Positions 907 through 41,865 of a stretch of DNA of 64,000 bases are shown here, piece by piece. The stretch comes from a virus, in the IMG/VR virus record IMGVR_UViG_3300020219_000012, positions 1-64,000 of that record. One strand, given 5' to 3'. A program made the translations under genes and the position numbers. Below the pieces are notes generated by a model, which saw nothing but the letters and a program-made list of their open reading frames with translations, made no database searches and had not been told where the DNA came from. Within the stretch, counting starts at the first letter, position 1. Each line of letters starts with the position of its first letter.

Positions 907-2883
907 ATGTCCGACGTCTCGCTAGGCCAGGGCGGCGCAGATCGGAGGCGGGGAACGGTTTATCCGTCCCCGTTCTTCGATATTGCGCAGACCTACATGC
1001 CACCGACAGTCAAGGAACTGTTCAGGTGGTGCGCCTACTTCTTCTACAAGGACCCGATGATCGGGTCGGTCGTCACCAAGATGGCCGAGTACCCGGTCAC
1101 CGACTTCGTCTACAACGCCGAGGAGAAGCACGTCCGCGACGGGTGGAAGGAGTTGATGGAGGACACCCTCAATCTCAAGCCCTTCCTCATCGAGATCGGG
1201 CTCGATTTTTTCTGCTACGGCAACGCCTTCATCTCCATCAACTTGCCGTTCGTGCGCTGGCTGCAGTGCACGGGCTGCTCGACGATGTTCCGCCTGTCGG
1301 ATCCATCGGTTGACTACAAGTTCCAGAACTACGGATTCAACATCAAGTGCGCGTCTTGCGGCACCAGCTGCACGGCCAAGATCGTCGACAAGCCACTTCG
1401 CGACCGCAGCGGTATCAACTTCGTCCGCTGGGATCCGAAGAACATCGACATCCACTACAACCCGATCACGGGGCGGTCGAAGTACCGCTACAAGATCCCC
1501 AACAAGATCCAGAAGGCCGTCCAGCAGGGCGACCGCAGCGTCCTGGTGGATATACCGGACATCTTCCTTCAGGCCCTAAAGCAGAAGCGCGACATCGCAC
1601 TCTCTGACCAGAACCTCTTCCACTTCAAGCGCCCGACGCTGGCCGAGGCGGACATGGGCTGGGGCAAGCCGCTCATCATTCACTCGATGGGCCGCATGTT
1701 CTATCTGTACGTCCTGCGCCGAGCCCAGGAAGCAATCGCCCTCCAGCGCATCATGCCGCTAGAGTTCATCTTCCCGCAGGCCAACGCCCAGCAGGATCCG
1801 TATCAGCACGTCAACCTGTCCAGCTGGCAGGGCACGGTGCAGAACGAAATCCGCAAGTGGCGGACTGACCCCAATTACATCTCGGTCGTCGCAGTGCCGC
1901 TCGGATTCGAGCGCCTCGGAGGGGACGGCCGAGCCCTTTTGCTAGGTCCCGAGATTGAGGTCACGAACAAGGAGATTACTGGCGGCATGGGCGTGCCGCT
2001 GGAGTTCGTGTTCGGTGGCCTGTCGTGGTCGGGGTCCAGCGTGTCGCTGCGCACCCTCGAGAACCACTTCCTCATGCACCGTCGCCTACTGCTCCGCTTC
2101 GTCAACTGGTCAAAGAACCGCATCCGCCTTTACCTCGGCCTCCCCGACATTGAGATCGGGTTCACCGAGTTCAAGATGGCGGACGATATCCAGCGCAAGC
2201 AGATCGTCATCCAGCTCAACGCCGCCAACAAGATCTCCGATCACACGATGCTCACCGAGCTCGGGTTCGACTACGACGACGAGCTCAAGATGATCGAGAA
2301 GGAAGCGGAGCAGCGTAACCGCATCCAGGCCGTCACCATGAAGGCCCAGACCGAGGCCCAGGGCGAGGCGTCCATCGTCCAGGCCAAGTACCAGGCCCGT
2401 GCCCAGGAGGCCATGAACGAGGCGTCAGGCGGGCAGTCCGGCGGTCAGCCCGCGCAGGGCGAGCAGGCGCAGGGACAAGCGCAGGGCGAGCAGCCTCAGT
2501 ACGCCGAGCAGGGGCAACAGCAAGCCCCGAACGCCGACCAGATGGGCGCCGATCAGCAGATGAGCGAGCAGGCAGCCCAGCAGGGCGCAGCCCAGCTTCC
2601 AGCCAACGTCGAGGGCGAGGCCGGGACCCAGTCTGGTGGGCAGGTTGTCCAGATGGACGCCTCCAGGGTCGCCAAGCAGTGGGCGAATCGCATCTCAAGG
2701 ATTCCGCCAGATCAGCGCGCATCCGTCCTGGCAGACCTGCGGCAGAAGATGCCGAATATGGCGCGCCTGGTTGAACAGATCCTGACCCAGATGCAGACCG
2801 GCGAGACCGCCGGTGAATCCGAGGAGCGCAACAAGCCATTGCCGCAGAGTGCCCCTCCGCGGCGTGAGGCGGGGACCATCTAA
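907..2883 (+). CDS. Portal protein
   Basis: 658 residues. Forms the dodecameric ring at the capsid vertex through which DNA is packaged and ejected. The core reads like phage portal proteins: an N-terminal alpha/beta region (KDPMIGSVVTKMAEYPVTD), a central wing, and a long helical stem/crown region with EITGGMGVPLEFVFGG and a membrane-like aromatic stretch. Two Cys pairs (CTGC and CASC, about residues 120-155) suggest a zinc-ribbon insertion. The C-terminal 170 residues are Gln/Gly/Ala-rich and low complexity. It is followed by a TAATG overlap with the next gene. The call rests on overall pattern and synteny with other packaging and structural genes. Confident on class, less on the limits of domains. 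Confidence 0.8.
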   Translation: MSDVSLGQGGADRRRGTVYPSPFFDIAQTYMPPTVKELFRWCAYFFYKDPMIGSVVTKMAEYPVTDFVYNAEEKHVRDGWKELMEDTLNLKPFLIEIGLDFFCYGNAFISINLPFVRWLQCTGCSTMFRLSDPSVDYKFQNYGFNIKCASCGTSCTAKIVDKPLRDRSGINFVRWDPKNIDIHYNPITGRSKYRYKIPNKIQKAVQQGDRSVLVDIPDIFLQALKQKRDIALSDQNLFHFKRPTLAEADMGWGKPLIIHSMGRMFYLYVLRRAQEAIALQRIMPLEFIFPQANAQQDPYQHVNLSSWQGTVQNEIRKWRTDPNYISVVAVPLGFERLGGDGRALLLGPEIEVTNKEITGGMGVPLEFVFGGLSWSGSSVSLRTLENHFLMHRRLLLRFVNWSKNRIRLYLGLPDIEIGFTEFKMADDIQRKQIVIQLNAANKISDHTMLTELGFDYDDELKMIEKEAEQRNRIQAVTMKAQTEAQGEASIVQAKYQARAQEAMNEASGGQSGGQPAQGEQAQGQAQGEQPQYAEQGQQQAPNADQMGADQQMSEQAAQQGAAQLPANVEGEAGTQSGGQVVQMDASRVAKQWANRISRIPPDQRASVLADLRQKMPNMARLVEQILTQMQTGETAGESEERNKPLPQSAPPRREAGTI

Positions 2884-3233
2884 TGGCTGCCAAGGCAAGT
2901 GAAGTTAAGGTCTCAATCGGCGGCAAGAACCTCGGCGAGTTCGTCGTCGGTCGCTACAACATGTTCGACGACGAGGACATGGACAAGTACGCGACGCTCC
3001 GGACCAACGCGAATGACGCATCCCGGGGTATCTATATTGAGCAAATCCGGGAATATACTCGCAAGAAGACGACTCGCGACGGCGATGGCGAAGAAGCCAT
3101 GGTGACGACGACCGAGGAAGTGTTCTTGGTGGTCCATTACTGGATCAAGAAACCGTTACTCGAAAAGGGAGACAGCGATGCGGATGTCAAAGAAGCACGG
3201 CGCGACTGGGTCAAAGAACGTTCTGTGGGCTAG
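2883..3233 (+). CDS. Small protein of unknown function between portal and holin
   Basis: 116 residues, start ATG overlapping the portal stop (TAATG), so translationally coupled. The sequence is soluble and mixed in charge, with a predicted beta-rich first half and an acidic Lys/Asp-rich tail. The 3' end overlaps the next gene by 56 bases. I recognise no family. The position suggests a small structural or connector protein, but this is inference. Confidence 0.6.
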   Translation: MAAKASEVKVSIGGKNLGEFVVGRYNMFDDEDMDKYATLRTNANDASRGIYIEQIREYTRKKTTRDGDGEEAMVTTTEEVFLVVHYWIKKPLLEKGDSDADVKEARRDWVKERSVG

Positions 3234-3717
3234 CCTGGTCGCGATCGCGATCGTCTGCCTCCCATCCCTGGCAGCTGCGGACACCGCCCTCGGTAACGCC
3301 TCGTCGGAGGTCCTGAACATCCTCATCCCGGTGTTCGTCGCCCTCGTTGGCGCGCTGGCCACCTGGCTGCTCAACAAGATCCAGAAGAAGGTCGGCATCG
3401 ACGTCGGCCAGAAGACCGCTGACGCCTGGTCGGAGCTCGCGCGCAAGGCCGCCATGCGCGGCGGCGAGTACGCTCGCAAGAAGATGAAGGACGTCACCGA
3501 CGGCAAGAAGCTGCCTGGACCGGAAGTCATGGAGGTCGCCGCGAACTGGGCGATCGAGATGGCCAAGCAGCAGAAGCTCCCTGACATGGCTCGCGAAAAG
3601 CTCGAGGGGCTCATCGAGGCCAACCTGTTCGAGATCCGCATGGACGAGGCCGCCACGGCAGCTGCCGTCTCGGTGACTTCCGCCATCCCCGAGACCGGTC
3701 CGAAGGCTAAGAAGTAG
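3178..3717 (+). CDS. Holin-like membrane protein (LL-H holin-like)
   Basis: 179 residues. A Lys-rich N-terminus is followed by a hydrophobic, signal-like segment (about residues 13-34, ending AAAD) and a second transmembrane stretch (about 45-66, ILIPVFVALVGALATWLL). The remainder is a long charged helical C-terminal domain. This is the arrangement of the LL-H type phage holins, which make holes in the inner membrane at lysis. GGGAGA upstream of the ATG supports the start. It lies first in a run of three overlapping membrane-protein genes, as expected of a lysis cassette, although no endolysin is recognisable next to it. Confidence 0.6.
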   Translation: MRMSKKHGATGSKNVLWASLVAIAIVCLPSLAAADTALGNASSEVLNILIPVFVALVGALATWLLNKIQKKVGIDVGQKTADAWSELARKAAMRGGEYARKKMKDVTDGKKLPGPEVMEVAANWAIEMAKQQKLPDMAREKLEGLIEANLFEIRMDEAATAAAVSVTSAIPETGPKAKK

Positions 3718-3721
3718 CGAG

Positions 3722-4153
3722 ATGGCCGACCAGGCGCCGTCCTCCTTCGACCCCGCATCCATCCTGGGCAAGCTCAAGGATGTGGTCACGGAGAAGAAGG
3801 AAGCCGAGACCGGCGGTGGCAAGTCATGGGTCAGCGCGCTGATCCTTATTGCCACAGCCTTGATCGGCATGGCGGTCTGGGCCTGGATCAGCTGGCGACG
3901 CAACCAGGAGCTTGCCAAGCTCCGCCACGAGAAGTTCGTGACGGAGCTGAAGGCGTCCCAGGATGTGATCGACCAGAAGGTCGCCGAGGGTACGGCCAAG
4001 ATTGAAGAATCCAAGAAGGCTGTCAAGGCGGCGGTGGAGAAGATTCGCGTCATCGACGCAGACATTCGGGCCGAGGAGGCAAGGTATGCGGCTGACTTGC
4101 GCGCTATCGATAGCATTCGTTCTTGGCGTGACGTCGATCCCAGCGTTCGCTGA
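3722..4153 (+). CDS. Inner-membrane coiled-coil protein, i-spanin-like
   Basis: 143 residues. One transmembrane segment (about 38-57, SALILIATALIGMAVWAWI) is followed by RR and a long heptad-like helix rich in Lys, Glu and Ala (about 60-130). A single N-terminal membrane anchor plus a periplasmic coiled coil is the layout of the inner-membrane spanin (Rz-like), which helps to fuse inner and outer membranes during lysis of Gram-negative hosts. The next membrane-protein gene starts inside its 3' end, as in Rz/Rz1 pairs. Identity is inferred from topology and context, not sequence similarity. Confidence 0.5.
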   Translation: MADQAPSSFDPASILGKLKDVVTEKKEAETGGGKSWVSALILIATALIGMAVWAWISWRRNQELAKLRHEKFVTELKASQDVIDQKVAEGTAKIEESKKAVKAAVEKIRVIDADIRAEEARYAADLRAIDSIRSWRDVDPSVR

Positions 4154-4550
4154 CGATCTGTACCAGCCGCAGGTCGTTCCCGCGTGCAAGGTATACAAGA
4201 CCACCGGCGGCGATGTTTGCGGCTACCTCAACATCGAAGACTGGAAGTCGGTCCTCAGGGCTGACGCCGAGCTCGTTCATGCCCGGGTCAGGCTAACGAA
4301 AGAAGTCGAGCGAGTCACCCTCCTGACCCTTCAGCTCGCTGAGCTAGAGGGGCAGGTAGCAATCCACGCGAGCAGTCAATCGATAGTGGTGCAGAGAAAC
4401 TCCGATCTGACCAAGCAGCTGGTTGACCTGGGCCTCAAGTATCAACAGGAACGCGCCAAGCCGAGCTTCGGTTCTCCACTGGCCTGGACCTTGGCCGGCG
4501 TCTCGACGTCACTGCTTGCCGGGTTTCTGATCTCAAGCCTCATCAACTAG
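4086..4550 (+). CDS. Exported coiled-coil protein with C-terminal membrane anchor, possible spanin partner
   Basis: 154 residues. I chose the ATG at 4086 because GAGGAGGCAAGGT lies just upstream; a longer in-frame extension would run through the previous gene. Residues 1-22 form a signal peptide (cleavage likely after AFA). A helical coiled-coil region follows (about 50-120), then a C-terminal transmembrane stretch (about 130-152). The gene begins 68 bases inside the preceding spanin-like gene. There is no lipobox, so it is not a classical Rz1 lipoprotein. A signal peptide plus C-terminal anchor is closer to a unimolecular design. The stop codon shares the palindrome CTAG with the convergent gene. 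Confidence 0.6.
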   Translation: MRLTCALSIAFVLGVTSIPAFADDLYQPQVVPACKVYKTTGGDVCGYLNIEDWKSVLRADAELVHARVRLTKEVERVTLLTLQLAELEGQVAIHASSQSIVVQRNSDLTKQLVDLGLKYQQERAKPSFGSPLAWTLAGVSTSLLAGFLISSLIN

Positions 4551-4984
4551 CCCTCATACTCCTCCAGGAACGAGGTCTGTCCAGACTTGGCTCGCTGGAA
4601 CTGCGGGCCGGGTCCCAGGCCGGCGCCGGTGGCGCAGTTCTGCTGCGCTGCTGGCATCGCCTGGACCACATTGGCCGCGCCGGTTACCAGCGCGGCAACC
4701 GGCAGCATTGGCAGGCCGTGGCTCTGCCACTTCTTCACGAAGTGGGAATAGATGAGACTCCCCGCGGCGATCATGAACGCCCACGCGCAAGCCGCCAGAA
4801 ATGTTCTAAGGCCGGTCGCGAACGCGCTTACTCCAGGAGAGGTCCCGGCATAGGCGCCCTTGTTGTTAAGGATGAAGCCATGGGCAGGAACCATCGTGGC
4901 CGCAGCGAGGCCGGCGGCGATTCTCCGGACCGGGCTGGAATCACTAGAGAGCGCTGACGTTTTTCTTTCAGAGAAAAAATACAT
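4547..4984 (-). CDS. Small multi-spanning membrane protein, unknown
   Basis: 145 residues from the ATG at 4984, which lies just after the end of the preceding minus-strand gene. Three hydrophobic stretches are visible (about 25-45, 60-88 and 93-115), with Lys/Arg-containing connectors and a soluble acidic tail. It is convergent with the lysis cassette and the two stop codons share CTAG. No family is recognised. It could be a second holin or antiholin or a superinfection-exclusion protein, but nothing in the sequence decides. Confidence 0.5.
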   Translation of the reverse strand: MYFFSERKTSALSSDSSPVRRIAAGLAAATMVPAHGFILNNKGAYAGTSPGVSAFATGLRTFLAACAWAFMIAAGSLIYSHFVKKWQSHGLPMLPVAALVTGAANVVQAMPAAQQNCATGAGLGPGPQFQRAKSGQTSFLEEYEG

Positions 4985-4994
4985 GTCTTTCTTT

Positions 4995-5192
4995 CTATTT
5001 CCGCCGCGGCGCCAGCGCCGTCCTGGCCGCGTTAAGGACAACGATCGTCATCGCCCACTGGGTCGCGAGCTTTGCCGCAGTCCAGCAGCTCGCCTCGACC
5101 AGGAGGAACAACACTGATTTTGACCTGGCAGGCGGAGGCGCCTCGCGGACAGACGGGACGGTGGAGGGTGGTGGTTGCGTGTAGAAGTACAT
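4995..5192 (-). CDS. Small single-span membrane protein, unknown
   Basis: 65 residues. The ATG at 5192 is preceded by AGGAGG at good spacing, which favours this start over longer in-frame extensions. The N-terminal third is Pro-rich (YTQPPPSTVPS), followed by a Lys/Arg pair and one or two hydrophobic segments, ending in a basic tail. It is transcribed divergently from the RNA polymerase gene. The 112-base interval between the two holds one copy of the CTTATGCCAGC word. Function unknown. Confidence 0.55.
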   Translation of the reverse strand: MYFYTQPPPSTVPSVREAPPPARSKSVLFLLVEASCWTAAKLATQWAMTIVVLNAARTALAPRRK

Positions 5193-5277
5193 GGTCGATT
5201 GCCTCCTGATTTGGCAGTATTTCCGAGATGCTGGGGCAATCCGGCAGTCGTTCCGGGTAAGCTGGGTCCTTAAAACC

Positions 5278-5288
5278 CTTATGCCAGC
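5278..5288 (+). promoter_or_regulatory. CTTATGCCAGC motif, copy 1
   Basis: Exact copy of the 11-bp word, with the upstream context TCCTTAAAACC. It lies 16 bases before the start codon of the RNA polymerase gene and between two divergent genes. An AGGTGA ribosome binding site follows it. No sigma-70 -35/-10 pair is evident here. It may be a promoter element or operator; which direction it serves cannot be read from this copy. Confidence 0.5.
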
Positions 5289-5304
5289 GGCGGTCAGGTG
5301 ACCC

Positions 5305-8300
5305 ATGAACCCCTTTGACCACGAGAGCCAGTTCGAGAAGATCAAGAAGGACGTTGTCGCGTCCTTTTCGAAGGCCCTGGATATCCAGGCAACCGGTACG
5401 GGGCGAAAGATTGTCGTCAAAAACGTTTGGGTCGACGACAACAAGGACTCGTCCGACTGGGAGTCTCAGCGCGAGGCGGTTCGCAAGGACAGGACTTGGG
5501 GTGTTCCCGTCTACGCCGCAATGGATCTGGTCGATCGTAAGACTGGTGCCGTGCTTTCGTCGGCAAATAAACTGAAGGTCGCAACTCTTCCCAAGACCAC
5601 AGACCTCGGCAGCTTCATCGTCGACGGAAAGCACTACCAGGTTCAGAACCAGCTTCGCCGCAAGCCCGGCGTCTACGTCACCGAGAAGAAGAACGGCGAG
5701 AAGAAGACCGAGATCAACATCGCGGGGCGACCCTTCGACATCAAGTACGACAACGAGAGCGGCGTCTTCAAGCTGATGCGTGGCGGCCTGGACTCGACTG
5801 GCGTTCCGCTCTACCCGCTCCTGTCCCGCATCGGCATCTCCGACTCGGCCATGGCCAAGGCGTGGGGCGCCGATGTCCTCGAGGCCAACAAGGCGATCAA
5901 GGAGAAGGACGCCACCAAGGCGGTCCTGAAGGCAGGCGAGTACTTCACTCGCAGTAAGCACGACTCGCCCGATGCGGCAGCTGTTGCCATCAGTAGCTTC
6001 TTTGACACCGACGCCGAGCTCAGGCCGGAGGTCACCAAGGCAACTCTTGGCAAGGAGTTCAGTCGAGTTGGCCCCGAGACGCTGCTTTACGGTTCAGCCG
6101 AGCTGCTAAAGCTCAACCGGGGACAGCGCGGCATCGACGACCGAGAGGCGCTGGAGTTCAAGAAGGCGCTTGGCACCTCCGACCTCATTGGCGAGCGGAT
6201 GATTCAGAGCACCGGCGAGCTCGCGCCCAAGCTGTCCGAGCTGCGCAAGAAGATTTTTTACCGCCTGAACAATCGCAAGGCGCCACCGACGGACATCTCC
6301 AAGCTGGTCAGCTCCAACGAGCTCAGCTCCATCTTCACCAGTTTCTTCACGCAGTCCGCCCTGGCCAACACGACCGACCAGACCAACCCGGTCAACATCT
6401 TGAACGGCATGTCCAAGATCACCATCCTGGGCGAGGGTGGCGTGCAGTCCGAGCGGGCCATCCGCGACGAGGAGCACTCGCTCCATCCGTCACACATGGG
6501 GTTCATCGATCCAATTCACACGCCCGACTCGAGCAAGATCGGCGTCGTGATGAACCTGCCACTCGGTGGCGGCAGGAAGGGCGACGACCTTCAGACTCAG
6601 ATCATCTCGATCAAGGACGGCGCAAGGCGCTGGGCGACACCGGCCGACGTGCGCGACATGGTCCTCGCTTTCCCGGACCAGTACCAGGACGGCAAGCTCA
6701 TCGGCAACAAGGTCAAAGCGATGGTTCACGGCGAGATGCAGATGGTCAGGGCCGACCAGGTCGACGCCGTCCTTGCCTCGTCGAAGCAGGCATTCTCCAT
6801 CGCATCCAACACCATCCCATTCCTTCAGTCGGCGCAGGGTGTGCGGGCCCAGATGGCGACGAAGATGATCGAACAGGCGCTCCCGCTCACCTACCGGGAG
6901 GTACCTCTGGTGCAGGTCAAGGTTGGCAAAGGGACTATCGAAAACACGATCGGCGAAGGGTTCTCGGTCCGGTCACTGAGCGATGGCGTTGTCGAAAAGG
7001 TCACGCCCAATCGCATTACCATCAGGACATCCGACGGCGTCGTCGAGCAGCCGATTTACAATAATCTCCCGCTCAACGGGAAGTCGTTCCTGCACGCTAC
7101 CGCGACCGTGAAAGCCGGCGATGAGATCAAGAAGGGTGGGGTCATCGCAGACTCCAACTTCACCAGCGGTGGAACGATGGCCCTGGGTACTAATCTGCGG
7201 GCGGCGTATATCCCGTACAAAGGCTACAACTTCGAAGACGGCATCGTCATCACCGAGGCTGCGGCCAAGAAGCTGTCCAGCGAGCACATGCATGAGCATG
7301 CGATCTCGGCCGACAAAGGCGACACGTTCTCCAAGGACGCCTTCATGGCCTGGCGCCCCGGGGCGCTCACCCCGGAGCAGCAGGAGATGCTGGACACCGA
7401 CGGTGTTGTCCGAAAGGGGCAGATCATCAAAAAGGGCGATCCGCTCTGGGTCGGGACCCGGGAGAACCGGTATGACCCCGACTACCTGGCGATGAAGAAG
7501 ATCGCACCGAACACGAACCCGCGCCGCGGTCACATGGAAGAGTGGACGGGCGACACCGACGGTGTGGTGGTCGACGTCATCAAGACCGGCAAGAAGGTCA
7601 AGGTCTACATCAAGACCGAGGAGCCGGCGCAGATCGGCGACAAGCTGACGAACAGGCACGGCGCCAAGGGCATCATCACGAAGATCATCGCCGACGGCGA
7701 AGCCCCGTATACACAGAACGCCGACGGCACTTCAGAGAAGGTCGACATCCTCCTCAACCCCCACGGCATCGTCACGCGCATCAACCCATCTCAGATCTTG
7801 GAGACGGCTGCTGCGAAGATTGCCACCAAGTCCGGCAAGCCGTACATCGTCGATAACTTCACTGGTGCCGACTACGCGCGGGACATGGCTGCGGAGCTGG
7901 CAAAGAACAAGATCTCCGACACGGAGACCCTGTACGACGCCCACAGCAAGGAGGCCCTCGGTGACGTGCTCGTCGGACCACAGTACGTGCTCAAGCTGTC
8001 CAAGCAGGCGACGTCGCAGTTCTCCGCCCGCAACGACGGCAAGTACGACATCAACCGAGCCCCGATGCGAGGTGGCGAGGACGGCGCCAAGGCGCTAGAC
8101 CTTCTGTCCTTCTACTCGATGCTGTCGCACGGCAGCCGCGCCAACCTGCGCGAGATGGCGACTTATAAGGGTTCCCAGAACGAGCACTTCTGGAACTGGC
8201 TCTCCGCTGGACACAAGAGCGGCCAGGTGGCACCGCCGCCGCAGCCAACCTTTGCGTACAGGAAGTTCGAGGCGTACCTCAACGGCGCCGGCGTAAACAC

Positions 8301-11300
8301 CAAGCGCAATGGCTCAAAGATGGTCATCCAGCCAATGACCGACAGGGAGGTTTCGAGCATGAGCTCGGGAGCCATTACTGAGCCCATCTTCGTGCGCGGC
8401 AAGGATCTGCGCGAAGAAGTTGGCGGCCTGATGGACCCAAGCATCTTCGGAGGGAAGTTCGGTGATCGGTGGGGCCATATCGAGCTCTCCGAGTCGATCC
8501 CGAACCCGGTATTCGAGAACCCCATCAAGAAGCTGACGGGGATGAATGACACGCAGTACACCGGCCTGGTCAAGGGCGATCTGTTCGTCGACCCTGCGAC
8601 CGGAGAGTGGGCGGACCACGGACTCACCGGCGGCCCGGCCATCCAGAAGATGCTGAGCGGCATCGACATCGATACCGACATCAAGTCGTGGACCGACAAG
8701 GCCAAGCAGTCCAAGACGGCGGCGAAGTTGGACGAGGCGAATAAGCGCCTGAAGTACCTGCACGCCCTCAAGAAGATTGGCGTGCGACCCGAGGACGCGT
8801 ACGTCCAGAGCAAGATCCCGATCATCCCACCGCAGTTCAGGCAGATCGTCGAGACCGACGACGGGCAGATCTCGAACCCCGGCCTCAACACGCTCTACCG
8901 AGACGTCAGCCTCATCAACAACGAGCTGGCTTGGCAGAAGGGCATCGACTACATGCCCGAGGGGTCGAAAGCCGAGCTCCGCCAGAACCTCTACGACGGC
9001 GTGGCGGCGATCTATGGCCTCGGGGATCCGATCGCCAAGTATCCAAAGATGCGCGTCCCCCAGGGCATCATCAAGCAGATTAAGGGCGAGAAAGCAGCGA
9101 AGGAAGGCTTCTTCATCAAGAGCGTCCTCAAGCGAAACCAGGACCTGGTCGGCCGCGGCACCATCATTCCGGAGCCGAAGCTGGGGCTCGACGAGGTTGG
9201 TCTACCGGAGGAGATGTCGTGGAGCATCTTCCAGCCCTTCATCACCCGCAGACTTGTCAACTCGGCCGGCAAGTCTCCGAGCGATGCCTCGAGGGAGGTG
9301 CGCGACCGCACGCCGGCGGCGAGGGCGGCCCTGGATGCGGAGATGCTCGAGCGCCCCGTCATCCTCAATCGCGCCCCGTCGCTGCACAAGTTCTCCATCA
9401 TGTCGTTCAAGCCGCAGATCACCAGCGGCAAGGCCATCAAGATTCCACCACTGGTGGTCAAGGGGTTCAACGCCGACTTCGACGGCGACGCCATGACGGT
9501 CCACGTCCCGGTGCTGCCAGATGCCGTGGAAGAGGCGAAGCGGATGCTGCCATCCAACAACCTCTACAACCCCGGCACCGGTCAGATCATGATGCAGCCA
9601 CAGAACGAGGCCGCCCTCGGACTCTTTCTGATGTCGCAGGACTCGGTAAAGAAGAACGACATCCTGGCCGCGTTACCGGCGCAGCTACAGGAGAAGTTCA
9701 AGGATGTTGAGCTGAACAAGAAGGGGCTTAGCGCCCTGACTCGCGACCTCGCCGAGGCCATGCCGCGGGATTACGGCAAGGTCCTGGATAAGCTGAAAGC
9801 CCTCGGTGACGAGCACACCTATCGGACCGGCTTCACCGTCAGCATGAAGGATTTGACGCCGAACATCCCGGGCAGGCAGGACATCTTCGACCGAACGGCG
9901 AAGTCGCTGTCGAAACTGGACTTGTCCAGCGTGGACGGTCGAGAGCAAGGCCGCCAGATCACCGGAGCCGCTAACAAAGAGCTGGACTTGGCGGTTGTCG
10001 CTGGGCTCAATGCTCAGTCGAATAACCTGAACCTCATGGTTCAGTCCGGCGCCCGCGGCAACCTGAACCAGCTCAAGCAGACGGTGTCGACGCCGTTCAT
10101 GGTCGACGACCACCGCGGCAACGCTTCGCCATTCCCGGTCATGAACTCCTTCTCCGAGGGTCTCCGATTCTCGGATTACTGGAGCACGCTGTATGGCGCT
10201 CGCGCAGCCGCTGTCGACAAGCAGCTTCAGACCAGCAAGCCGGGCGAGTTCAATAAGGACATCATGGCCACGTCGGTCGCGACCGTCATCGCCAAGGATG
10301 ACTGCGGGACCAGGGAGGGCCTCGACATCGCCACCGGCTCATCCGACGCCGAGGACAGATTCTTGGCCAAGGACATCTCGGTCAGGGGGGATGTCATTGC
10401 TCCGGCCGGAAGCCAGGTGACGGCCGGCCTCCTGAGCACCCTTCGCGACAGAAGAATCAAGACTATCGACGTTCGGTCTCCGATTACGTGTCGTCTCCCG
10501 AAGGGGGTCTGCGGGAAGTGCTACGGGCTCAATGAGCACGGCATGTCCCCGTCCATTGGCGACAACGTTGGGGCCACGTCGGGGCAGTCGATGTCCGAGC
10601 CGCTCACGCAGATGACCATGCGTACCTTCCACTCGGGCGGAATCTCCGGCACCCGCGGCGTGGTCACCGGCTACGACAAGATCGACAAGCTCCTTAAGAT
10701 GCCCGAGATCAAGAAGGGGCGCGCCACTTTGTCACAGTCCGACGGTGTCGTTGACAGCGTCTCCGTGTCCGTCGGTGCTACGGGCAGGGACGTGAAGATC
10801 GGCGGCAAGAACCACTACATCTCGAATGACCTGTGGGACCCGGGCCGGGTTCGCGTCGGCGGACAGGTGGTCAAGGGCGACATCCTCTCGTCCGGCCTGG
10901 CTCAGCCAGATGAACTCGCCAGACTAAAGGGGATGCGGTCGGCCCAGGAGTACCTGGCAAATGAGATCCAGTCCGCCTACAGCAGCCAGGGCGTCGACCT
11001 CAAGCGTCGCTCGATCGAGACGGTCATCCGCTCTGTTGGCAACACCACCAGAGTCCTTGACCCCGGCGGTAGCGAGTTCCTCCACGGCGACGTCGCGCCA
11101 TGGACCGTCGTCGAGGACTACAACGCCAGGAAGCTGGGCAAGAAAAGCCTCGAGGAGGCTCACGGCATGACACTCCAGGAGGATGTGCCAGGAGTCGCAC
11201 GCGGCACGGTGATTAACGACCGCGTCAAGAAGCTACTCGAGCGCTCCGGGCTAACGGAGATCGAAACGGGGGTGCTGCCCATCCTGCACCGCCCATTCCT

Positions 11301-11505
11301 CAAGGGCATTCAGGAGATCCCGATGATGCGCGATGACTGGATGAGCCAGATGGGCTACCGCCGTCTCAAGGGGGCCATTGTCGAGGGGGCGGCTCGAGCT
11401 GCGGAGTCTGACCTTCACGGCTACTCGCCAATCCCTGGCTTTGCCTACGGGGCGGAGTTCGGCGAAGATCCAACGGGCAAGTCCAAGACTGAGGGCGTTT
11501 ACTGA
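5305..11505 (+). CDS. Single-chain DNA-directed RNA polymerase: beta and beta-prime fused
   Basis: 2066 residues in one uninterrupted frame; AGGTGA precedes the ATG. The first half is beta-like: FIVDGKHYQVQNQLRRKPGV (about residue 109 on), PIHTPDSSKIG (about 405), GYNFEDG (640-646), GDKLTNRHGAKG (778-789) and a VDILLNPHGIVTRINPSQ block (about 813). The second half is beta-prime-like: a shortened clamp coiled coil with IPIIPPQF (about 1172), VLKRNQDLVGRG (about 1273), the catalytic NADFDGD (1389-1395, three Mg-binding Asp), GARGNLNQLKQ, four Cys of a zinc site ending GVCGKCYG, and the trigger-loop region MRTFHSGG (1772-1779). Cellular beta plus beta-prime total about 2700 residues, so lineage-specific insertions are missing. 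No alpha or omega gene is visible in the window. It probably transcribes phage genes. Whether it is packaged in the virion is unknown. Confidence 0.95.
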   Translation: MNPFDHESQFEKIKKDVVASFSKALDIQATGTGRKIVVKNVWVDDNKDSSDWESQREAVRKDRTWGVPVYAAMDLVDRKTGAVLSSANKLKVATLPKTTDLGSFIVDGKHYQVQNQLRRKPGVYVTEKKNGEKKTEINIAGRPFDIKYDNESGVFKLMRGGLDSTGVPLYPLLSRIGISDSAMAKAWGADVLEANKAIKEKDATKAVLKAGEYFTRSKHDSPDAAAVAISSFFDTDAELRPEVTKATLGKEFSRVGPETLLYGSAELLKLNRGQRGIDDREALEFKKALGTSDLIGERMIQSTGELAPKLSELRKKIFYRLNNRKAPPTDISKLVSSNELSSIFTSFFTQSALANTTDQTNPVNILNGMSKITILGEGGVQSERAIRDEEHSLHPSHMGFIDPIHTPDSSKIGVVMNLPLGGGRKGDDLQTQIISIKDGARRWATPADVRDMVLAFPDQYQDGKLIGNKVKAMVHGEMQMVRADQVDAVLASSKQAFSIASNTIPFLQSAQGVRAQMATKMIEQALPLTYREVPLVQVKVGKGTIENTIGEGFSVRSLSDGVVEKVTPNRITIRTSDGVVEQPIYNNLPLNGKSFLHATATVKAGDEIKKGGVIADSNFTSGGTMALGTNLRAAYIPYKGYNFEDGIVITEAAAKKLSSEHMHEHAISADKGDTFSKDAFMAWRPGALTPEQQEMLDTDGVVRKGQIIKKGDPLWVGTRENRYDPDYLAMKKIAPNTNPRRGHMEEWTGDTDGVVVDVIKTGKKVKVYIKTEEPAQIGDKLTNRHGAKGIITKIIADGEAPYTQNADGTSEKVDILLNPHGIVTRINPSQILETAAAKIATKSGKPYIVDNFTGADYARDMAAELAKNKISDTETLYDAHSKEALGDVLVGPQYVLKLSKQATSQFSARNDGKYDINRAPMRGGEDGAKALDLLSFYSMLSHGSRANLREMATYKGSQNEHFWNWLSAGHKSGQVAPPPQPTFAYRKFEAYLNGAGVNTKRNGSKMVIQPMTDREVSSMSSGAITEPIFVRGKDLREEVGGLMDPSIFGGKFGDRWGHIELSESIPNPVFENPIKKLTGMNDTQYTGLVKGDLFVDPATGEWADHGLTGGPAIQKMLSGIDIDTDIKSWTDKAKQSKTAAKLDEANKRLKYLHALKKIGVRPEDAYVQSKIPIIPPQFRQIVETDDGQISNPGLNTLYRDVSLINNELAWQKGIDYMPEGSKAELRQNLYDGVAAIYGLGDPIAKYPKMRVPQGIIKQIKGEKAAKEGFFIKSVLKRNQDLVGRGTIIPEPKLGLDEVGLPEEMSWSIFQPFITRRLVNSAGKSPSDASREVRDRTPAARAALDAEMLERPVILNRAPSLHKFSIMSFKPQITSGKAIKIPPLVVKGFNADFDGDAMTVHVPVLPDAVEEAKRMLPSNNLYNPGTGQIMMQPQNEAALGLFLMSQDSVKKNDILAALPAQLQEKFKDVELNKKGLSALTRDLAEAMPRDYGKVLDKLKALGDEHTYRTGFTVSMKDLTPNIPGRQDIFDRTAKSLSKLDLSSVDGREQGRQITGAANKELDLAVVAGLNAQSNNLNLMVQSGARGNLNQLKQTVSTPFMVDDHRGNASPFPVMNSFSEGLRFSDYWSTLYGARAAAVDKQLQTSKPGEFNKDIMATSVATVIAKDDCGTREGLDIATGSSDAEDRFLAKDISVRGDVIAPAGSQVTAGLLSTLRDRRIKTIDVRSPITCRLPKGVCGKCYGLNEHGMSPSIGDNVGATSGQSMSEPLTQMTMRTFHSGGISGTRGVVTGYDKIDKLLKMPEIKKGRATLSQSDGVVDSVSVSVGATGRDVKIGGKNHYISNDLWDPGRVRVGGQVVKGDILSSGLAQPDELARLKGMRSAQEYLANEIQSAYSSQGVDLKRRSIETVIRSVGNTTRVLDPGGSEFLHGDVAPWTVVEDYNARKLGKKSLEEAHGMTLQEDVPGVARGTVINDRVKKLLERSGLTEIETGVLPILHRPFLKGIQEIPMMRDDWMSQMGYRRLKGAIVEGAARAAESDLHGYSPIPGFAYGAEFGEDPTGKSKTEGVY

Positions 11506-13569: not shown

Positions 13570-14541
13570 GTGAACAACAACTTCTGGAAGGGTGGCGGAC
13601 AGCCCTCTGGCCGCATCCTCTTCGGGGTCGTTGGGGAGCAGAACCCCAATCGTCCCGGAATCTATAGGTTTTCTTCGACCTGCGGGATCGTCGTGAACGA
13701 CGCCCACGTCCTGAGCCCTGACGCCGACAACAGCGGTGGCGGAGAGCATACCCAGCCCAGGGCCGGGTCCACCTGCGTGGCGGTAATGACCAGCAACGGA
13801 GCTCAGTGCTTCATTATTGGCTTCTCGCGATCGCCCACCGTGGACGACGAGTCAGATGAGGCTCCGAGCGTTGGAACTCCGGCCGACAGCGACACGGCCG
13901 GTGACAAGGTCTACAAGACCGCCGGTGGTGCCACTCTGCTTCTCAAGCGGGGTGGGGCGGTGGTCATGGAAGGTGGTCCGGGTTCGAGCATTCTACTGAA
14001 CCCGCTCAACAACCAGATGTCGCTCAGGTCATCGAACCTCCGCCAGAACGCCGACGGATACCTGGCCAAGCGAGGGCGGCAAAAGATCGGCTCCACCGAT
14101 CCGGAGACCGTCCACGAGGAAGCATTCCTCCACCAAGTTGGGCCCGCGTACGACAGGATCAGAATCCGCCACGGCAACCTGGACGCCAACGCCAGACGAA
14201 CGCTCGAGCTCGCCTCGGTAAAGATCGTGTCCAGCAAAGAGGTCGCCGAGATCAAGACCCGCGAGACCTACTTCAGCGACGGGTCCTGGGTCGGCGAAGG
14301 TCCCAAATACCAGTGGGGCGGGGCGGGCGCGGACGAGCCAGCCGTGCTCGGCCTCCAGCTGGTCGAAGCGTTCTCGACGCTCATCGACATCATCAAGGAA
14401 CTCAAGGTCGGGACCGCGTGGGGACCCTCGACTCCGCCGCTACCCCCGACTCCGATCCAGCTTGAACAGCTCAAGAGCCAGCTATCTGATAAGATTCTCT
14501 CGACCTTCGCCTTCTTCTCCAAGACTCCACCGACCCTTTAA
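13570..14541 (+). CDS. Putative baseplate spike/hub protein
   Basis: 323 residues, GTG start with GGATGG upstream. The N-terminal 90 residues look like an OB-type barrel (RILFGVVGEQNPNRPGIYRF), followed by Gly-rich beta sequence (AGGATLLLKRGGAVVMEGG) that resembles the beta-helical stalk of gp5/VgrG-like spikes. The C-terminus has a helical stretch and a Pro-rich turn (STPPLPPTP). It leads the long plus-strand structural operon and is coupled to the next gene by TAATG. The spike assignment is by pattern and place; sequence similarity was not tested. Confidence 0.5.
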   Translation: MNNNFWKGGGQPSGRILFGVVGEQNPNRPGIYRFSSTCGIVVNDAHVLSPDADNSGGGEHTQPRAGSTCVAVMTSNGAQCFIIGFSRSPTVDDESDEAPSVGTPADSDTAGDKVYKTAGGATLLLKRGGAVVMEGGPGSSILLNPLNNQMSLRSSNLRQNADGYLAKRGRQKIGSTDPETVHEEAFLHQVGPAYDRIRIRHGNLDANARRTLELASVKIVSSKEVAEIKTRETYFSDGSWVGEGPKYQWGGAGADEPAVLGLQLVEAFSTLIDIIKELKVGTAWGPSTPPLPPTPIQLEQLKSQLSDKILSTFAFFSKTPPTL

Positions 14542-15005: not shown

Positions 15006-17378
15006 ATGGAAAACCTATTCTCAGAAGACCCACAGTTCCGTCGCGTTCAGTACAAGAAGCTGTCGGACAACGCCCGTGAGTGGCAGCAGGAGATCGCAGC
15101 CCTGGTCGCCGAGAAGCTGCCGAAGGACCTTGGCCTGAGCATCGCCGTCACCTTCCAGAAGGTTGACGACGAAAAGGGTTACGCCATCGGTTCGGCGATT
15201 GCCTCCGACGAGAGCGGTAACTCGATCGGCATCCCGGCGATCGTCAAGTCATGGAATCTGGCGCCCATCGACCTGTTCTTCAAGGAGAACAAGGTCTACC
15301 CGCTGACCGATGACAACCTGGCCAAGGTCTTCTACCAGTCGAGCATGGGCACCGGCCTCGCCCCCGCGAACCCGCCTCCGGCGATGGCGGACGACAGCTT
15401 CGCAGAGGTCCGCTCGCCGCCCATGGGCGGGAAGTACTCCTACTCCTCGCCGCACTCGATGATTGGGGCGATCAGCGGGACCTTGGGCGCGGGCGATCTC
15501 CGGATGTTTAAGCAGGCTGTGGCACAGGAGCCGCGTCTGCTGGCGGCCTATCACCGCCGTGGCACCGACTCACTGCTGCGTAAGATCGCCGCCGAGGCTC
15601 CCAAGCAGACCGAGCAGGACGACGCCAACAAGGAGCGGGCCTCGGAGGTCTTCACCGTCAAGAAGGACGGCCCCAACCAGTACCGCCTGTTCTCGGCACC
15701 TGACGAGGTCTACGACCCGGTCATGATCTCGACCGATCGCCAGGGGCTCAAGCGCTTCCTGGAGATGCGCAAGTCCGAGCTGTGGGACTACGAGCAAGAT
15801 CCGCTCAACAGCATCGACCAGTACGGTCACTTCACCGTCATTCCTCCTGAGACGGTCTATGGCAAAGAGGTCGACGGCCCCGCCGGCAACATCAGCCTGG
15901 GCAAGCACCTGAATCCTTGGGTGTTCGATCCGCTACAGGACGACCGAATCGTCAGGACCGTCGACAAGTTCGGTCGCTACGGCGTCAAGGATGCCGACGG
16001 CGTTCTGGCCAAGGGCTGGGTCATCCCCAACGTCGTCGACTTCACTGGCGCCAGCAAGCCGATCAAGCTGTTCCTGGGCAAGTCGCTCGCCTCCATGCAG
16101 GGCCGCATTGCCGGCATCGCCCTCAACGACGATGCCGATGTCACGCTCAAGGCCGACCGGCCGGACACCGGCAAGATGGGGACCTTGGTTTACCGCGATG
16201 GGGACAGGGTGCTCGCCACCGTGCCCTTCCAGGTAACTTCGGTGACCGTCTACAAGAACCTTCGCAGCCTTGGCGTCGTTGACTACCAGGGCCACATCGC
16301 GAACCTGATCATCTCGCCCAATATCGACGGCATCGTCGCCGTCAACGACAAGCAGAAGTCAACCCTTGGGCCACTCCTGGGCGCCGGCAAGAACTACATC
16401 GTGTCGGCGAAGATGTTCTTCGTCCGCATGCCTCGCCTCTGCCAAGTCTCGGAAGGCCCCGACGACTTCAAGCGGATGGCAGCTGAGTGGCTGGACAAGA
16501 ATCCCGTAAAGGTGGCGCAGGCGAATGGCCGCTACATCTTCAAGGGTGGTGCGATCTCCAAGTATGCCAACCCGCTGTCGAGCCCCTCGCAGGGCGCCGG
16601 CACGATGGAAGTCAAAACGCCGGTAACCGCCCCCGCGGTCAAGCCGGGCATGGCCGGCAGCCTCGACAAGAAGGTAGAGACCCCGAAGCCCATCGCCCCC
16701 GCGGTCAAGCCGGGCATGGCCGGCAGCCTCGACAAGAAGGTAGAGACCCCGAAGCCCATCGCCCCTGCCGCTCCAGGTGCGGGCGCGACCGCGATGGGCA
16801 AAGTGTCGTTCGACTTCAACTCGCTGGCCCGCCACGAGGCTGAATTTCTGCTCGGCTACTGGGGGCTTGGCAGCGAGAAGGTCGCGGAGGTCCTCGACAG
16901 GTCCAGGGACCACATCCGCCTCGAGGTTCACCACCTACGCTTCCCTGCAGCTGGCCGGATGGCCAAGACGGCGTCGCCTAAGATCAAGGCATTCATCGAC
17001 TCGGTGCGGTCGCCTATCGGAGATCTGCTGAAGTGTGCTGCAAGCATCGACGATGCGCAGGCCGTTGACGCCGTCCTGTCTCTCGGATTCGTGAACGACG
17101 AGAACATCGTCAGGTTCGCGTCCGCCAAGCCGATGCTCTGGGAGGTTAGCCAGATGCTCGCCAAGCTGCTCCTGGCCTCCCGCCTGGGCATGGAGGATGT
17201 CCCCGAGGAGAACGTCAGGGCCGCCCTGGCTCACATCCAGAAGATCCTGGCCGGCCTCGAGCGCCTCCAGATGCTTAGCAAAACCCAAGAGAAGACGTCT
17301 GCCGTGAAGCAGTCGCCGCGGTCCCATGTTGGCGGCCGCCTGCTCCCGGCGGCGAGCTCCTACGGGTTTGTTCGATGA
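15006..17378 (+). CDS. Large virion protein with tandem repeat linker
   Basis: 790 residues; AGGAGAAC precedes the ATG. The N-terminal 500 residues are mixed alpha/beta with no recognised motif. A Pro/Lys linker (about 535-595) contains two identical 22-residue copies of PAVKPGMAGSLDKKVETPKP-type sequence. The C-terminal 190 residues are helical and carry DFNSLARHEAEFLLGYWG, AGRMAKTASPKIKA and many Leu/Ala, consistent with an oligomerising or DNA/protein-binding domain. Lies between spike and terminase genes. The role (baseplate or internal virion protein) is inferred only from context. Confidence 0.55.
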   Translation: MENLFSEDPQFRRVQYKKLSDNAREWQQEIAALVAEKLPKDLGLSIAVTFQKVDDEKGYAIGSAIASDESGNSIGIPAIVKSWNLAPIDLFFKENKVYPLTDDNLAKVFYQSSMGTGLAPANPPPAMADDSFAEVRSPPMGGKYSYSSPHSMIGAISGTLGAGDLRMFKQAVAQEPRLLAAYHRRGTDSLLRKIAAEAPKQTEQDDANKERASEVFTVKKDGPNQYRLFSAPDEVYDPVMISTDRQGLKRFLEMRKSELWDYEQDPLNSIDQYGHFTVIPPETVYGKEVDGPAGNISLGKHLNPWVFDPLQDDRIVRTVDKFGRYGVKDADGVLAKGWVIPNVVDFTGASKPIKLFLGKSLASMQGRIAGIALNDDADVTLKADRPDTGKMGTLVYRDGDRVLATVPFQVTSVTVYKNLRSLGVVDYQGHIANLIISPNIDGIVAVNDKQKSTLGPLLGAGKNYIVSAKMFFVRMPRLCQVSEGPDDFKRMAAEWLDKNPVKVAQANGRYIFKGGAISKYANPLSSPSQGAGTMEVKTPVTAPAVKPGMAGSLDKKVETPKPIAPAVKPGMAGSLDKKVETPKPIAPAAPGAGATAMGKVSFDFNSLARHEAEFLLGYWGLGSEKVAEVLDRSRDHIRLEVHHLRFPAAGRMAKTASPKIKAFIDSVRSPIGDLLKCAASIDDAQAVDAVLSLGFVNDENIVRFASAKPMLWEVSQMLAKLLLASRLGMEDVPEENVRAALAHIQKILAGLERLQMLSKTQEKTSAVKQSPRSHVGGRLLPAASSYGFVR
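16632..16763 (+). repeat. Perfect 66-bp in-frame tandem duplication
   Basis: Two identical 66-bp units (16632-16697 and 16698-16763), each encoding 22 residues that begin PAVKPGMAG and end ETPKPIA. They lie within the 790-residue virion protein gene. Exact identity, including third codon positions, points to a recent duplication. Confidence 0.9.
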
Positions 17379-17384
17379 ACCTGC

Positions 17385-18269
17385 GTGCGCTACCCCTACG
17401 AGAGATTCCTTAGATTCCTCGTTTCGCGCAAGGTTGACCCCAACCAGACGCTGAAGCGATACGGGCTTCCGCCCGTGAGCTCGCTATGGATCTCCGACTG
17501 TCGATCTGGGTTCCGCAGGTCAGCCCCGCACGCTCTTGTGCGGCACCTGGACTCCGACGATACCGAGCTCCTGACGACGGATGGCGTCGCGGAGTGGGCA
17601 GAGCGAGAGGGGATTCGCCTGCTCTGGGAGATTCAGCCGGAGCTCGGCGGCCTTGCGATGGCCAGGGAGCTGGACCTCTCGGCGAGGATCTTCGCCAACC
17701 AACAGGCCCGCCTGCGACTGGGGTTGTTTCTATTTTCGAAGGCTACCTCGTCCGAGATCGCCGAGCTCGCGGCCATCCACTTCGACATGGAGATCGATCC
17801 GCTCGTCATCGAGACGTATCGGAAGATCTTCTGGGATTCGCAGGCCGTTCCAAGTGGCGACTGGGAAACGCTCATCGACGCGATGGACAGGGACGAGCGC
17901 CACTACCTGGCGCTGGGATTCGAGAGACCAACCCTTGAGAACGTCCAGTGCATCCTGGGCATGAAGTACTCGCTGGAGCCCGATGCCGTCCTCAGGCGGT
18001 TGATGAATACCTCCATTGAGCAGTATGACTTGGCCATGAAGCAGCCGATTCCAGCGTCAGCCGACGCGTTGCGCTGGGGTGAGATGGCAAAGCAGGCGGC
18101 GGTCGCGCTGGCCGCCCATGTCCCCAAGAAGGCTCCCGAATCGTCGATTCCGAACGACTTTAACGGCCTGTTCACGGTTCAAATCTCCAAGTCCAACCAC
18201 ATCTCCCTGGCAAACCTGCAGGGTCGGGTAGGGGCGCCCTTGCCGCCCAAGCCCCCCGAGGAGGCGTAA
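17385..18269 (+). CDS. Unknown protein directly upstream of the large terminase
   Basis: 294 residues, GTG start six bases after the preceding stop, and its own stop overlaps the terminase start (TAATG). Mostly helical, with YPYERFLRFLVSRKVDP at the N-terminus, where a helix-turn-helix is conceivable, and a Pro-rich end (PPKPPEEA). The position matches where a small terminase subunit often lies. It is longer than most and no family is recognised, so this is only a suggestion. Confidence 0.55.
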   Translation: MRYPYERFLRFLVSRKVDPNQTLKRYGLPPVSSLWISDCRSGFRRSAPHALVRHLDSDDTELLTTDGVAEWAEREGIRLLWEIQPELGGLAMARELDLSARIFANQQARLRLGLFLFSKATSSEIAELAAIHFDMEIDPLVIETYRKIFWDSQAVPSGDWETLIDAMDRDERHYLALGFERPTLENVQCILGMKYSLEPDAVLRRLMNTSIEQYDLAMKQPIPASADALRWGEMAKQAAVALAAHVPKKAPESSIPNDFNGLFTVQISKSNHISLANLQGRVGAPLPPKPPEEA

Positions 18270-20059
18270 TGGAGGGCCCAGATCTCGAGGGCGACGATAG
18301 CGACCTGGAGGCGGACCCATTTGACTTCACAGGCAAGGAGATCGATCACGACGCTCCGGCGTTCGCCAACGACGTCAAGCGGGACGGCCAGTATGACTGG
18401 GAGCCACGCCTCACCCAGCTGACCCGACCCGGCAAGGCACGCCCAACCTTCCAGGGCCGCAAGAGCGACATTGCCCAGGCCGTGCTCTATCACCTTGGCC
18501 GGCCGCTCCGCCTCGACAACCACGCCTTCATGCTCCCCATCTACAACGATGAGGATGAGCGCCTGGTAATGAAGTGCAGTCGACAGGTTTCGAAATCCAC
18601 GACTGTCTGCAACCTGCAAATTATCGAATCGATCATTCGCCCGCACTGGCGGTCTCTCTACGTCTCGCCGTCCGCCCTCCAGACGCGGCAGTACTCCAAC
18701 GAGAAGCTGCGGCCGACGCTGATCGAGTCCCCGTTCGTCCAGCGCTACCTGTTCAACAAGGGCGTCACGGACCAGGTCTTCGAGAAGACCCTCGCTAACG
18801 GCTCGTACATCTTCCTGCGTTACGCCTTCCTCACGGCCGCTCGAGCTCGAGGCATCCCAGCCAGCCGCGTCTTCTTCGACGAGGCTCAGGATCTCCTCAA
18901 GGACAACATCAAGGTCATCAGCCAGTCGCTGTCGGCGTCGCGGCTCTCGATGGGTGTCCCGGGCAAAGAGATGATTACCGGCACCCCGTTGACCTTCTCG
19001 AACGCGCTCGAGGAGTACTGGCAGTGGTCCACCCAGAACGAATGGATGGTCCCCTGCGACTGCACCGGCGGCGAATCGGGCCGTTACTGGAATTACCTGG
19101 ACGCTCGCAGCATCGGCAGGAAGGGGCTGATCTGCTCGAAGTGCGGCAAGGCCATCAATCCGGCGCAGGGTCAGTGGGTCAGCTTCGCTCCAAATGAGTT
19201 CTACGTCGGCTACCACATCTCACAGCTGATGGTCCCGTGGAAGCAGAGCGAGGACGCCTGGCGGACCGAGATCGTTATGCCGCACGAGAAATGGCCGGAG
19301 TCGAAGTTCAACAATGAGATCTTGGGGATCTCCTACGACAATGCATCCGCGCCGGTTACGCGCATGGACATCCAGCAGAACTGCTGGCCGGTCAAGAAGC
19401 ACGAAGGCATCGACAGCTCGAACTTCACTTACTCGCGGGGGCCGGCCCATAGCGGCCTGCGCATCTTTGCCGGCATCGACTGGGGCGAAGGTCGCGAAGA
19501 GGGTGAGGTCAACTCGGGCAGGAAGAAGTTCGCTTCTTGGACCGTCCTGACCCTCGGAGCCTACGTCAACGCCGAGACCTTCTGGCCCTTCATGATGAAG
19601 CGGTACGTCGGCAAGGAGGTCGATCCGGAGCTAATCCTCCCCGACGTCGAACACATCTGCGCCCACTGGAACGTCGAAATCATCGGCGCCGACTGGGGTC
19701 ACGGATGGGGCATGAACAGCCGCCTGTTCAAGAGCCGTGGGAGGGAAGGCGTCATGCAGTTTGCCTACTCCGCCAACCTTGGCGAGCGCAAGCGCTGGGA
19801 CTCCAACGCCTACAAGTTCATCGTCAATCGGAACGCTGCCATGTCCACCTTTTTTGGTGACATCAAGCAGGGGAATTTCATGTTCCCCGCCTGGGACGCC
19901 TTCGAGCCATTCGCCAAGGACATCCTGGCCGAGTACGTAGAGTACAACGATCGCACCCGGACTATGATGTACGACCATCCTATCGACCAACCGGATGACG
20001 CCCTCCACAGCATGGTTTATGCGAAACTCGCCGCCGACATCACCCTCGGAAAGTTCTAG
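18269..20059 (+). CDS. Terminase large subunit (TerL)
   Basis: 596 residues. ATPase and nuclease that pumps DNA into the prohead through the portal. Walker A variant CSRQVSKSTT (103-112), Walker B VFFDEA (201-206), and a zinc-like knuckle from C263/C265 and C289/C292. The RNase H-like nuclease has AGIDWG (D404), IIGADWGHGWG and the C-terminal HPIDQPDDALHS with the third acidic position. All catalytic elements are present and full length is typical. The gene sits in the middle of the structural block, with the upstream gene translationally coupled. Confidence 0.93.
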   Translation: MEGPDLEGDDSDLEADPFDFTGKEIDHDAPAFANDVKRDGQYDWEPRLTQLTRPGKARPTFQGRKSDIAQAVLYHLGRPLRLDNHAFMLPIYNDEDERLVMKCSRQVSKSTTVCNLQIIESIIRPHWRSLYVSPSALQTRQYSNEKLRPTLIESPFVQRYLFNKGVTDQVFEKTLANGSYIFLRYAFLTAARARGIPASRVFFDEAQDLLKDNIKVISQSLSASRLSMGVPGKEMITGTPLTFSNALEEYWQWSTQNEWMVPCDCTGGESGRYWNYLDARSIGRKGLICSKCGKAINPAQGQWVSFAPNEFYVGYHISQLMVPWKQSEDAWRTEIVMPHEKWPESKFNNEILGISYDNASAPVTRMDIQQNCWPVKKHEGIDSSNFTYSRGPAHSGLRIFAGIDWGEGREEGEVNSGRKKFASWTVLTLGAYVNAETFWPFMMKRYVGKEVDPELILPDVEHICAHWNVEIIGADWGHGWGMNSRLFKSRGREGVMQFAYSANLGERKRWDSNAYKFIVNRNAAMSTFFGDIKQGNFMFPAWDAFEPFAKDILAEYVEYNDRTRTMMYDHPIDQPDDALHSMVYAKLAADITLGKF

Positions 20060-41356: not shown

Positions 41357-41385
41357 ACCTGCCGGCAACCCCGGGAGGCTAGGAC

Positions 41386-41862: not shown

Positions 41863-41865
41863 ACC

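Follow-up and report, generated by a model that had tools for sequence, protein, structure and literature searches.

We analysed a 64,000-nucleotide window (positions 1 to 64,000 of IMG/VR virus record IMGVR_UViG_3300020219_000012) and identified one intact 2066-codon frame (5305-11505, + strand) that encodes a bacterial-type RNA polymerase (RNAP) beta sequence followed by a beta-prime sequence in a single chain. The same joined gene occurs in scores of other uncultured phages, usually next to the portal gene, and in the virions of a cultured relative, Salmonella phage Arash, the homologous polymerase is the most-detected protein. We infer that the chain is a packaged, sigma-directed, alpha-free polymerase for early, probably rifampicin-insensitive, transcription, and we give this reading a probability of about 0.72. 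Single-chain phage polymerases and bacterial-like phage polymerases were each known, but a large family combining both appears to be undescribed.

The frame encodes beta and beta-prime in one chain

The open reading frame starts with ATG, ends with TGA and is open throughout, with a uniform third-position GC of 0.81-0.89 in sliding windows, including across residues 900-1100. A Pfam search found Rpb2_3 (residues 357-418), Rpb2_6 (560-923), Rpb1_1 (1118-1211), Rpb1_2 (1349-1414), and Rpb1_4 and Rpb1_5 (1619-1919) in order. The beta-like half spans 5305-8304 (residues about 1-1000), and the beta-prime-like half spans 8365-11502 (residues about 1021-2066) and matched PDB beta-prime chains with E values to 9e-109. 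We place the approximate junction at 8302-8364 (residues 1000-1020), since bacterial N-terminal beta-prime columns are missing after residue 1017. Confident AlphaFold models of both core parts (pLDDT 88.8 and 87.5) had Thermus beta and beta-prime as their best PDB matches, with a Foldseek match of the beta half to the Thermus beta chain 4g7h_C at E=2e-39.

The catalytic residues are kept. The initial annotation had placed the NADFDGD motif at residues 1389-1395, which we confirmed (9469-9489), and D1391, D1393 and D1395 are invariant in 111/111 family members. In the beta half, the motif GYNFEDGI lies at 7222-7245 and the catalytic-barrel motif GDK..RHG.KG at 7636-7671, with K780 conserved in 110/111 and K788 in 109/111 members, while R825 is conserved in 111/111. 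The trigger-loop region (10558-10656, residues about 1752-1784) carries His1776, a His in 108/111 members, and the model shows a long helix at residues 1630-1657 (bridge helix) and paired trigger helices. Comparison with an 86%-identical relative gave a dN of 0.094 and a dS of 1.05 (dN/dS about 0.09), showing purifying selection. In an alignment to 23 bacterial RNAPs, the region equivalent to the rifampicin pocket (6358-6450, residues 352-382) has G368, K371 and T373 at what, in the usual E. coli numbering, should be the H526, R529 and S531 positions.

The initial annotation had also noted zinc-site cysteines, and this required a qualification. The four Zn2 ligands are present (C1667 at 10303-10305; C1729, C1736 and C1739 within 10489-10521), but only this second beta-prime zinc site exists. 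The bacterial N-terminal zinc-binding domain is deleted at residue about 1050 (8449-8457), where about 32 alignment columns are absent in the family and there is no Cys in this region.

The genes form one phage family

Contigs 76%, 86% and 100% identical, and 86 dereplicated fused sequences in a 145-taxon tree, cross the junction in one frame, which excludes the frameshift or assembly join at residues 930-1050 that the initial annotation had raised as a possible refutation. The genes form one phage family, with a support of 1.0 on the full alignment and on the beta-prime half. However, the beta-only tree did not recover a clean family, since the divergent phages YerA41 and Carin-5, which have separate beta and beta-prime genes, fall inside it. 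On the full alignment the separate-gene group is sister to the family, and the family lies outside the sampled bacteria (no archaea were included), while the Helicobacter-type fusion nests inside them. A scan of a genome collection returned only cellular-type RNAPs among the 80 loci kept.

Some family members are genetically split inside beta-prime (at positions about 1450 and 1095), apparently later events, but the beta/beta-prime junction was never split in 111 sequences. In phage Arash (OQ632216; PMC10585845), gp206 is beta fused to the N-terminal part of beta-prime, and beta-prime is cut after the catalytic domain into a second gene, gp216. Arash belongs to the same family by tree and synteny (portal, small gene, RNAP) and is about 33% identical over the shared part, although the description we consulted calls gp206 "subunit beta" and does not mention a fusion. 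Vibrio phages D69, D148 and D181 (OZ195729, OZ196545 and OZ196140) belong to the same family, with the same neighbourhood in D69 and D181, which we examined. Their genes are split at about residue 1445 and annotated as hypothetical proteins, and the D181 gene is also interrupted by a homing-endonuclease gene at about residue 509.

No alpha or omega gene was found in any of 26 related phage records (0/26 each), while the controls were positive in 13/14 and 14/14. In each of the 26 records, some of which may be fragments, all PF00623 hits fell in one RNAP gene. These results support the initial annotation, which had noted the fusion, its streamlined length, the lack of visible alpha or omega genes and the contrast with split phiKZ-type enzymes, but which had missed the large phage family, the loss of the first zinc-binding domain and the sigma factor described below.

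Genomic context, virion proteins and sigma factors

The polymerase gene lies among phage structural genes. The portal gene (907-2883, +) matched phrog_16240 and phrog_64 at E about 1e-5, and a portal homolog lies within 6 kb upstream on the same strand in 95 of 106 loci. The window also encodes a GpA-type terminase large subunit (18269-20059, +; PF05876 E=1e-11, phrog_675 E=9e-51), a major capsid protein (39944-40837, +; phrog_2522 E=1.5e-15, with a weak PF05065 match, E=0.0011) and a tail sheath protein (44188-47019, +; phrog_279, E=8e-9), which supports the initial assignment to a contractile-tailed phage.

The initial annotation had suggested from gene position alone that the polymerase could be virion-borne. 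This is now supported by the conserved portal-RNAP synteny and by published virion mass spectrometry of Arash (PMC10585845), though not for this phage itself. In Arash virions, gp206 has 3516 spectra, the most of any virion protein, compared with 1210 for gp216, 467 for the sigma factor gp10 and 1333 for the major capsid protein. Arash has the split form, not the single chain, and its virion list also holds likely contaminants such as ribonucleotide reductase and DNA ligase, as its authors concede.

Homologs of the gp10 sigma occur in 21 of 27 family records, although those beyond the Arash group are weak in Pfam. A profile of the gp10 family and its two flanking genes all failed to match the contig, but this contig is a 100,342-base linear fragment, so genes missing from it are weak evidence. 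In the 86%-identical relative, the sigma gene lies about 24.5 kb upstream of the RNAP on the same strand, beyond where the window contig starts. An in-frame TAG in the sigma hit of one record (G026) does not reflect stop-codon recoding, since it lies upstream of the gene start, and the window genes use all three stops. A 162-aa protein with sigma-70 region 4 only (51020-51508, -; PF04545 E=6e-11) is a possible transcription factor but a weak candidate for the cognate sigma, with a clear homolog, 43% identical, only in one related record (G001).

Interpretation and alternatives

Based on these results, we propose that the gene encodes an active DNA-dependent RNA polymerase in which the covalent link replaces the alpha-dimer scaffold that brings beta and beta-prime together in cells, so that the core forms without alpha or omega. 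We infer that the enzyme is loaded into the virion during head assembly together with a phage sigma factor, enters the host with the DNA and transcribes the early genes from phage promoters. It probably ignores rifampicin because three key pocket residues differ. Packaging in this phage, sigma dependence, the early role, rifampicin insensitivity and compensation for alpha by the fusion are inferences, no expression or virion data exist for this phage, and a host alpha or omega could still bind.

The best surviving alternative, which we consider unlikely, is a nonvirion polymerase made during infection for middle or late genes, like the phiKZ nvRNAP, with its location only reflecting late co-transcription. 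Late-region genes are not always packaged, and the separate-gene phages YerA41 and Carin-5 keep their RNAP beside DNA polymerase. However, the single beta-prime gene per record leaves no separate virion enzyme of this kind in the 26 records, and the very high spectra in Arash virions with its sigma and the tight portal linkage across divergent members also argue against it. It is somewhat less likely that the enzyme borrows host sigma, alpha or omega instead of phage factors. The beta-prime stretch that includes the clamp helices, which bind sigma region 2 in bacteria, aligns to bacterial chains, and no sigma with region 2 is on this contig, but the gp10-type sigma is found in most larger related records, including the nearest with enough flanking sequence. 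Processing of the chain into beta and beta-prime parts after translation is doubtful. The splits inside beta-prime show that pieces can assemble without a covalent link there, but no member is split at the beta/beta-prime junction, the linker is short and the Helicobacter fusion appears to work uncut, although we did not look for protease sites. An assembly artefact or a recent host capture with a chance fusion, conceivable since the contig is metagenomic and bacteria such as Helicobacter have fused rpoBC, is refuted by the many independent contigs, the tree and the flanking phage portal, terminase and capsid genes.

A more speculative possibility, which remains tentative, is that a large, old lineage of tailed phages carries this covalently self-assembling, alpha- and omega-free enzyme as its only polymerase, that the fused form is ancestral, and that it is packaged as a holoenzyme with its own sigma, passes through the portal and tail as one threadable chain, refolds in the host and runs the phage transcription programme.

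Relationship to known polymerases

The mReC phages (Weinheimer and Aylward 2020, PMC7481178) also encode bacterial-like beta and beta-prime, but that paper reports no fusion, and their capsid and terminase families (PF07068 and PF03237) differ from those found here. We infer that the separate-gene group, which has the order beta-prime then beta, is probably mReC. The crAss-like phage phi14:2 gp66 is a single-chain two-barrel RNAP (PMC10770324), but crAss-type enzymes are too divergent for bacterial beta or beta-prime models to detect (PMC7481178), unlike the chain reported here. The phiKZ and AR9 virion RNAPs also lack alpha and omega, but they are split into five or so chains, are distant in sequence, and coexist with a second, nonvirion polymerase. 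Thermus phage P23-45 gp96 and gp64 are single-chain two-barrel polymerases, one of them in the virion, but gp96 is fused to the tape measure protein, and they are structurally far from bacterial RNAP. The fused RpoBC of Helicobacter and Wolbachia has the same order but is cellular, longer (2896 aa in the sequence L139) and nests inside bacteria, so it is an independent fusion.

How phage multisubunit polymerases hold together without the universal alpha scaffold is stated as unknown (PMC7598289). This family is a natural experiment, a near-bacterial enzyme whose two large subunits are one chain, with close relatives that split it at defined places but never at the beta/beta-prime junction. It makes alpha-free assembly directly testable, gives a minimal single-gene bacterial-type polymerase for synthetic biology and structure work, and links a well-alignable polymerase to virion packaging. 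It also suggests that some phage genes labelled "RNAP beta subunit" are beta-beta-prime fusions.

Sequence and predicted structure of the fused polymerase gene

We found that the frame at 5305-11505 is a real gene, consisting of one ATG-to-TGA frame of 2066 codons with a uniform coding signature (third-position GC of 0.81-0.89 in all sliding windows, including those over the junction). Pfam analysis placed beta domains (Rpb2_3 and Rpb2_6) and then beta-prime domains (Rpb1_1, Rpb1_2, Rpb1_4, and Rpb1_5) in order along the frame, and a sequence search of the PDB matched bacterial beta-prime chains at E values down to 9e-109. The linear virus record is 100,342 bases long, and its bases 1-64000 carry portal, GpA-type terminase, capsid, and tail sheath genes.

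The fused frame is not an artefact, since close relatives carry the same uninterrupted frame (the related stretches L004, L006, and L005, which are 100%, 86%, and 76% identical, respectively). We used wider scans to bring in about 200 more viral stretches and read all their frames, which showed that most complete members of this family are single frames of about 2000-2200 codons. Between this gene and that of L006, dN is 0.094 and dS is 1.05, so the protein is under strong constraint.

We aligned 111 family members with 23 bacterial and 11 separate-gene phage polymerases to determine which residues are kept. The Mg-binding residues D1391, D1393, and D1395 are present in 111/111 family members, R825 in 111/111, K780 in 110/111, K788 in 109/111, the four Zn2 cysteines in at least 109/111, and the trigger-loop His1776 in 108/111. 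However, the N-terminal zinc-binding domain of bacterial beta-prime is deleted. In the rifampicin pocket, the positions taken to be equivalent to E. coli H526, R529, and S531 are G368, K371, and T373, and based on these differences, we predict insensitivity. Interestingly, the RNAP genes of eight stretches (L071, L080, L086, L093, L094, L099, L254, and L258) have inserts of about 340-500 aa that look like inteins, many of which start with C and end with GN or HN before S, T, or C. These inserts sit at the most conserved RNAP motifs, near residues 405-409, 781-792, 1394-1397 (at NADFDGD), and 1776 (the trigger loop) in P0001 numbering.

AlphaFold models of residues 481-1460 (pLDDT, 88.8; pTM, 0.77) and residues 1441-2066 (pLDDT, 87.5; pTM, 0.69) are confident, and Foldseek searches returned Thermus RNAP beta and beta-prime, respectively, as the best solved matches. 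The second model superposes only in parts (rmsd of about 21 over the full length), which is not surprising for a flexible multidomain piece predicted alone. We read the long predicted helix at residues 1630-1657 as the bridge helix and the paired helices around residues 1755-1798 as the trigger helices.

Phylogeny of the fused family

A 145-taxon tree gave the fused family, together with its split members, as one clade (support of 1.0). The full alignment and the beta-prime half agree, but on the beta half, two long-branched phages, YerA41 and Carin-5, fall inside the family. The fused polymerase of Helicobacter sits inside bacteria, so that fusion is independent. A second phage RNAP group (including L238, L240, L259, L267, L268, L279, L293, and L303) has separate genes in which beta-prime (about 900 aa) is upstream of beta (about 1000 aa), opposite to the bacterial order. 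This group, which is probably the mReC type, is the sister of the fused family on the full alignment.

Within the family, 86 dereplicated members are single chains and 25 are split, nearly all after the catalytic domain at about residue 1440-1470, some also at about residue 1092-1107, and a few at 509 or 733. The splits at 509 or 733 could be intron or sequencing effects. In L357 (Vibrio phage D181; 2381-3330), the beta part is interrupted at about residue 509 with a homing-endonuclease gene in the gap, although Vibrio phage D69 is continuous there, and this interruption is probably an intron. All but one of the split members form one clade, with one long-branched fused member inside, and none of the 111 is split at the beta/beta-prime junction. 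On a tree without archaea that was rooted on bacteria for display only, the simplest reading is one ancestral fusion followed by later fissions inside beta-prime.

Polymerase partners

We searched 26 family records for the alpha (PF01193) and omega (PF01192) subunits, and both were absent, while the cellular controls were positive. One polymerase gene per record accounted for all PF00623 hits. The virion sigma factor of Salmonella phage Arash, gp10, has homologs in 21 of 27 records. Neither this sigma factor nor either of its conserved neighbours is present on our contig, but the 86%-identical relative has the sigma gene at 40981-41871 (-), about 24.5 kb upstream of its RNAP on the same strand. 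Our contig begins only 5.3 kb upstream of the RNAP, so the absence is explained by the missing end. A separate 162-aa protein encoded at 51020-51508 (-) has only sigma-70 region 4 plus a short cysteine-bearing stretch. This protein is not a good candidate for the general partner, because only one record (G001) has a clear homolog. In the stretch L008, we also noted neighbouring genes for a GHKL-type ATPase (HATPase_c_3) and a 1124-aa protein with an MCM-like P-loop domain, at 1196-3328 (-) and 3841-7215 (-).

Linkage of the polymerase to the virion

A portal homolog lies within 6 kb upstream on the same strand in 95 of 106 loci with enough upstream sequence, although these loci were not fully dereplicated. 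Arash shows the order portal, small gene, RNAP directly, and D69 has the same layout. Three proteins encoded at 13570-14541, 15006-17378, and 17385-18269 have no Pfam or PHROG match, but their homologs occur in 74-86 related loci near the RNAP, making them conserved unknown members of the structural module. Published mass spectrometry of Arash particles found gp206 as the most-detected protein (3516 spectra, 100% coverage), with gp216 at 1210 spectra, the sigma factor gp10 at 467, and the capsid at 1333 (PMC10585845). The authors of that study allow that some enzymes may be carry-over.

Relation to known phage polymerases and proposed mechanism

Bacterial-like beta and beta-prime in tailed phages (mReC; PMC7481178), single-chain but very divergent polymerases of the crAss and P23-45 types (PMC10770324), and split virion polymerases of the phiKZ type (PMC7598289) were already known. 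The mReC paper mentions fusion only for crAssphage, and by its capsid and terminase families, this phage does not meet the published mReC definition. In a search of open-access papers that did not cover subscription journals or bioRxiv, we found no paper that describes the combination seen here, a bacterial-type, single-chain, portal-linked family, but prior description is possible.

Based on these results, we favor a virion-packaged, sigma-directed, alpha- and omega-independent single-chain polymerase that starts early phage transcription. A single chain may also help passage through the tail, although this is speculation. We infer that the covalent junction does the job of the alpha scaffold.
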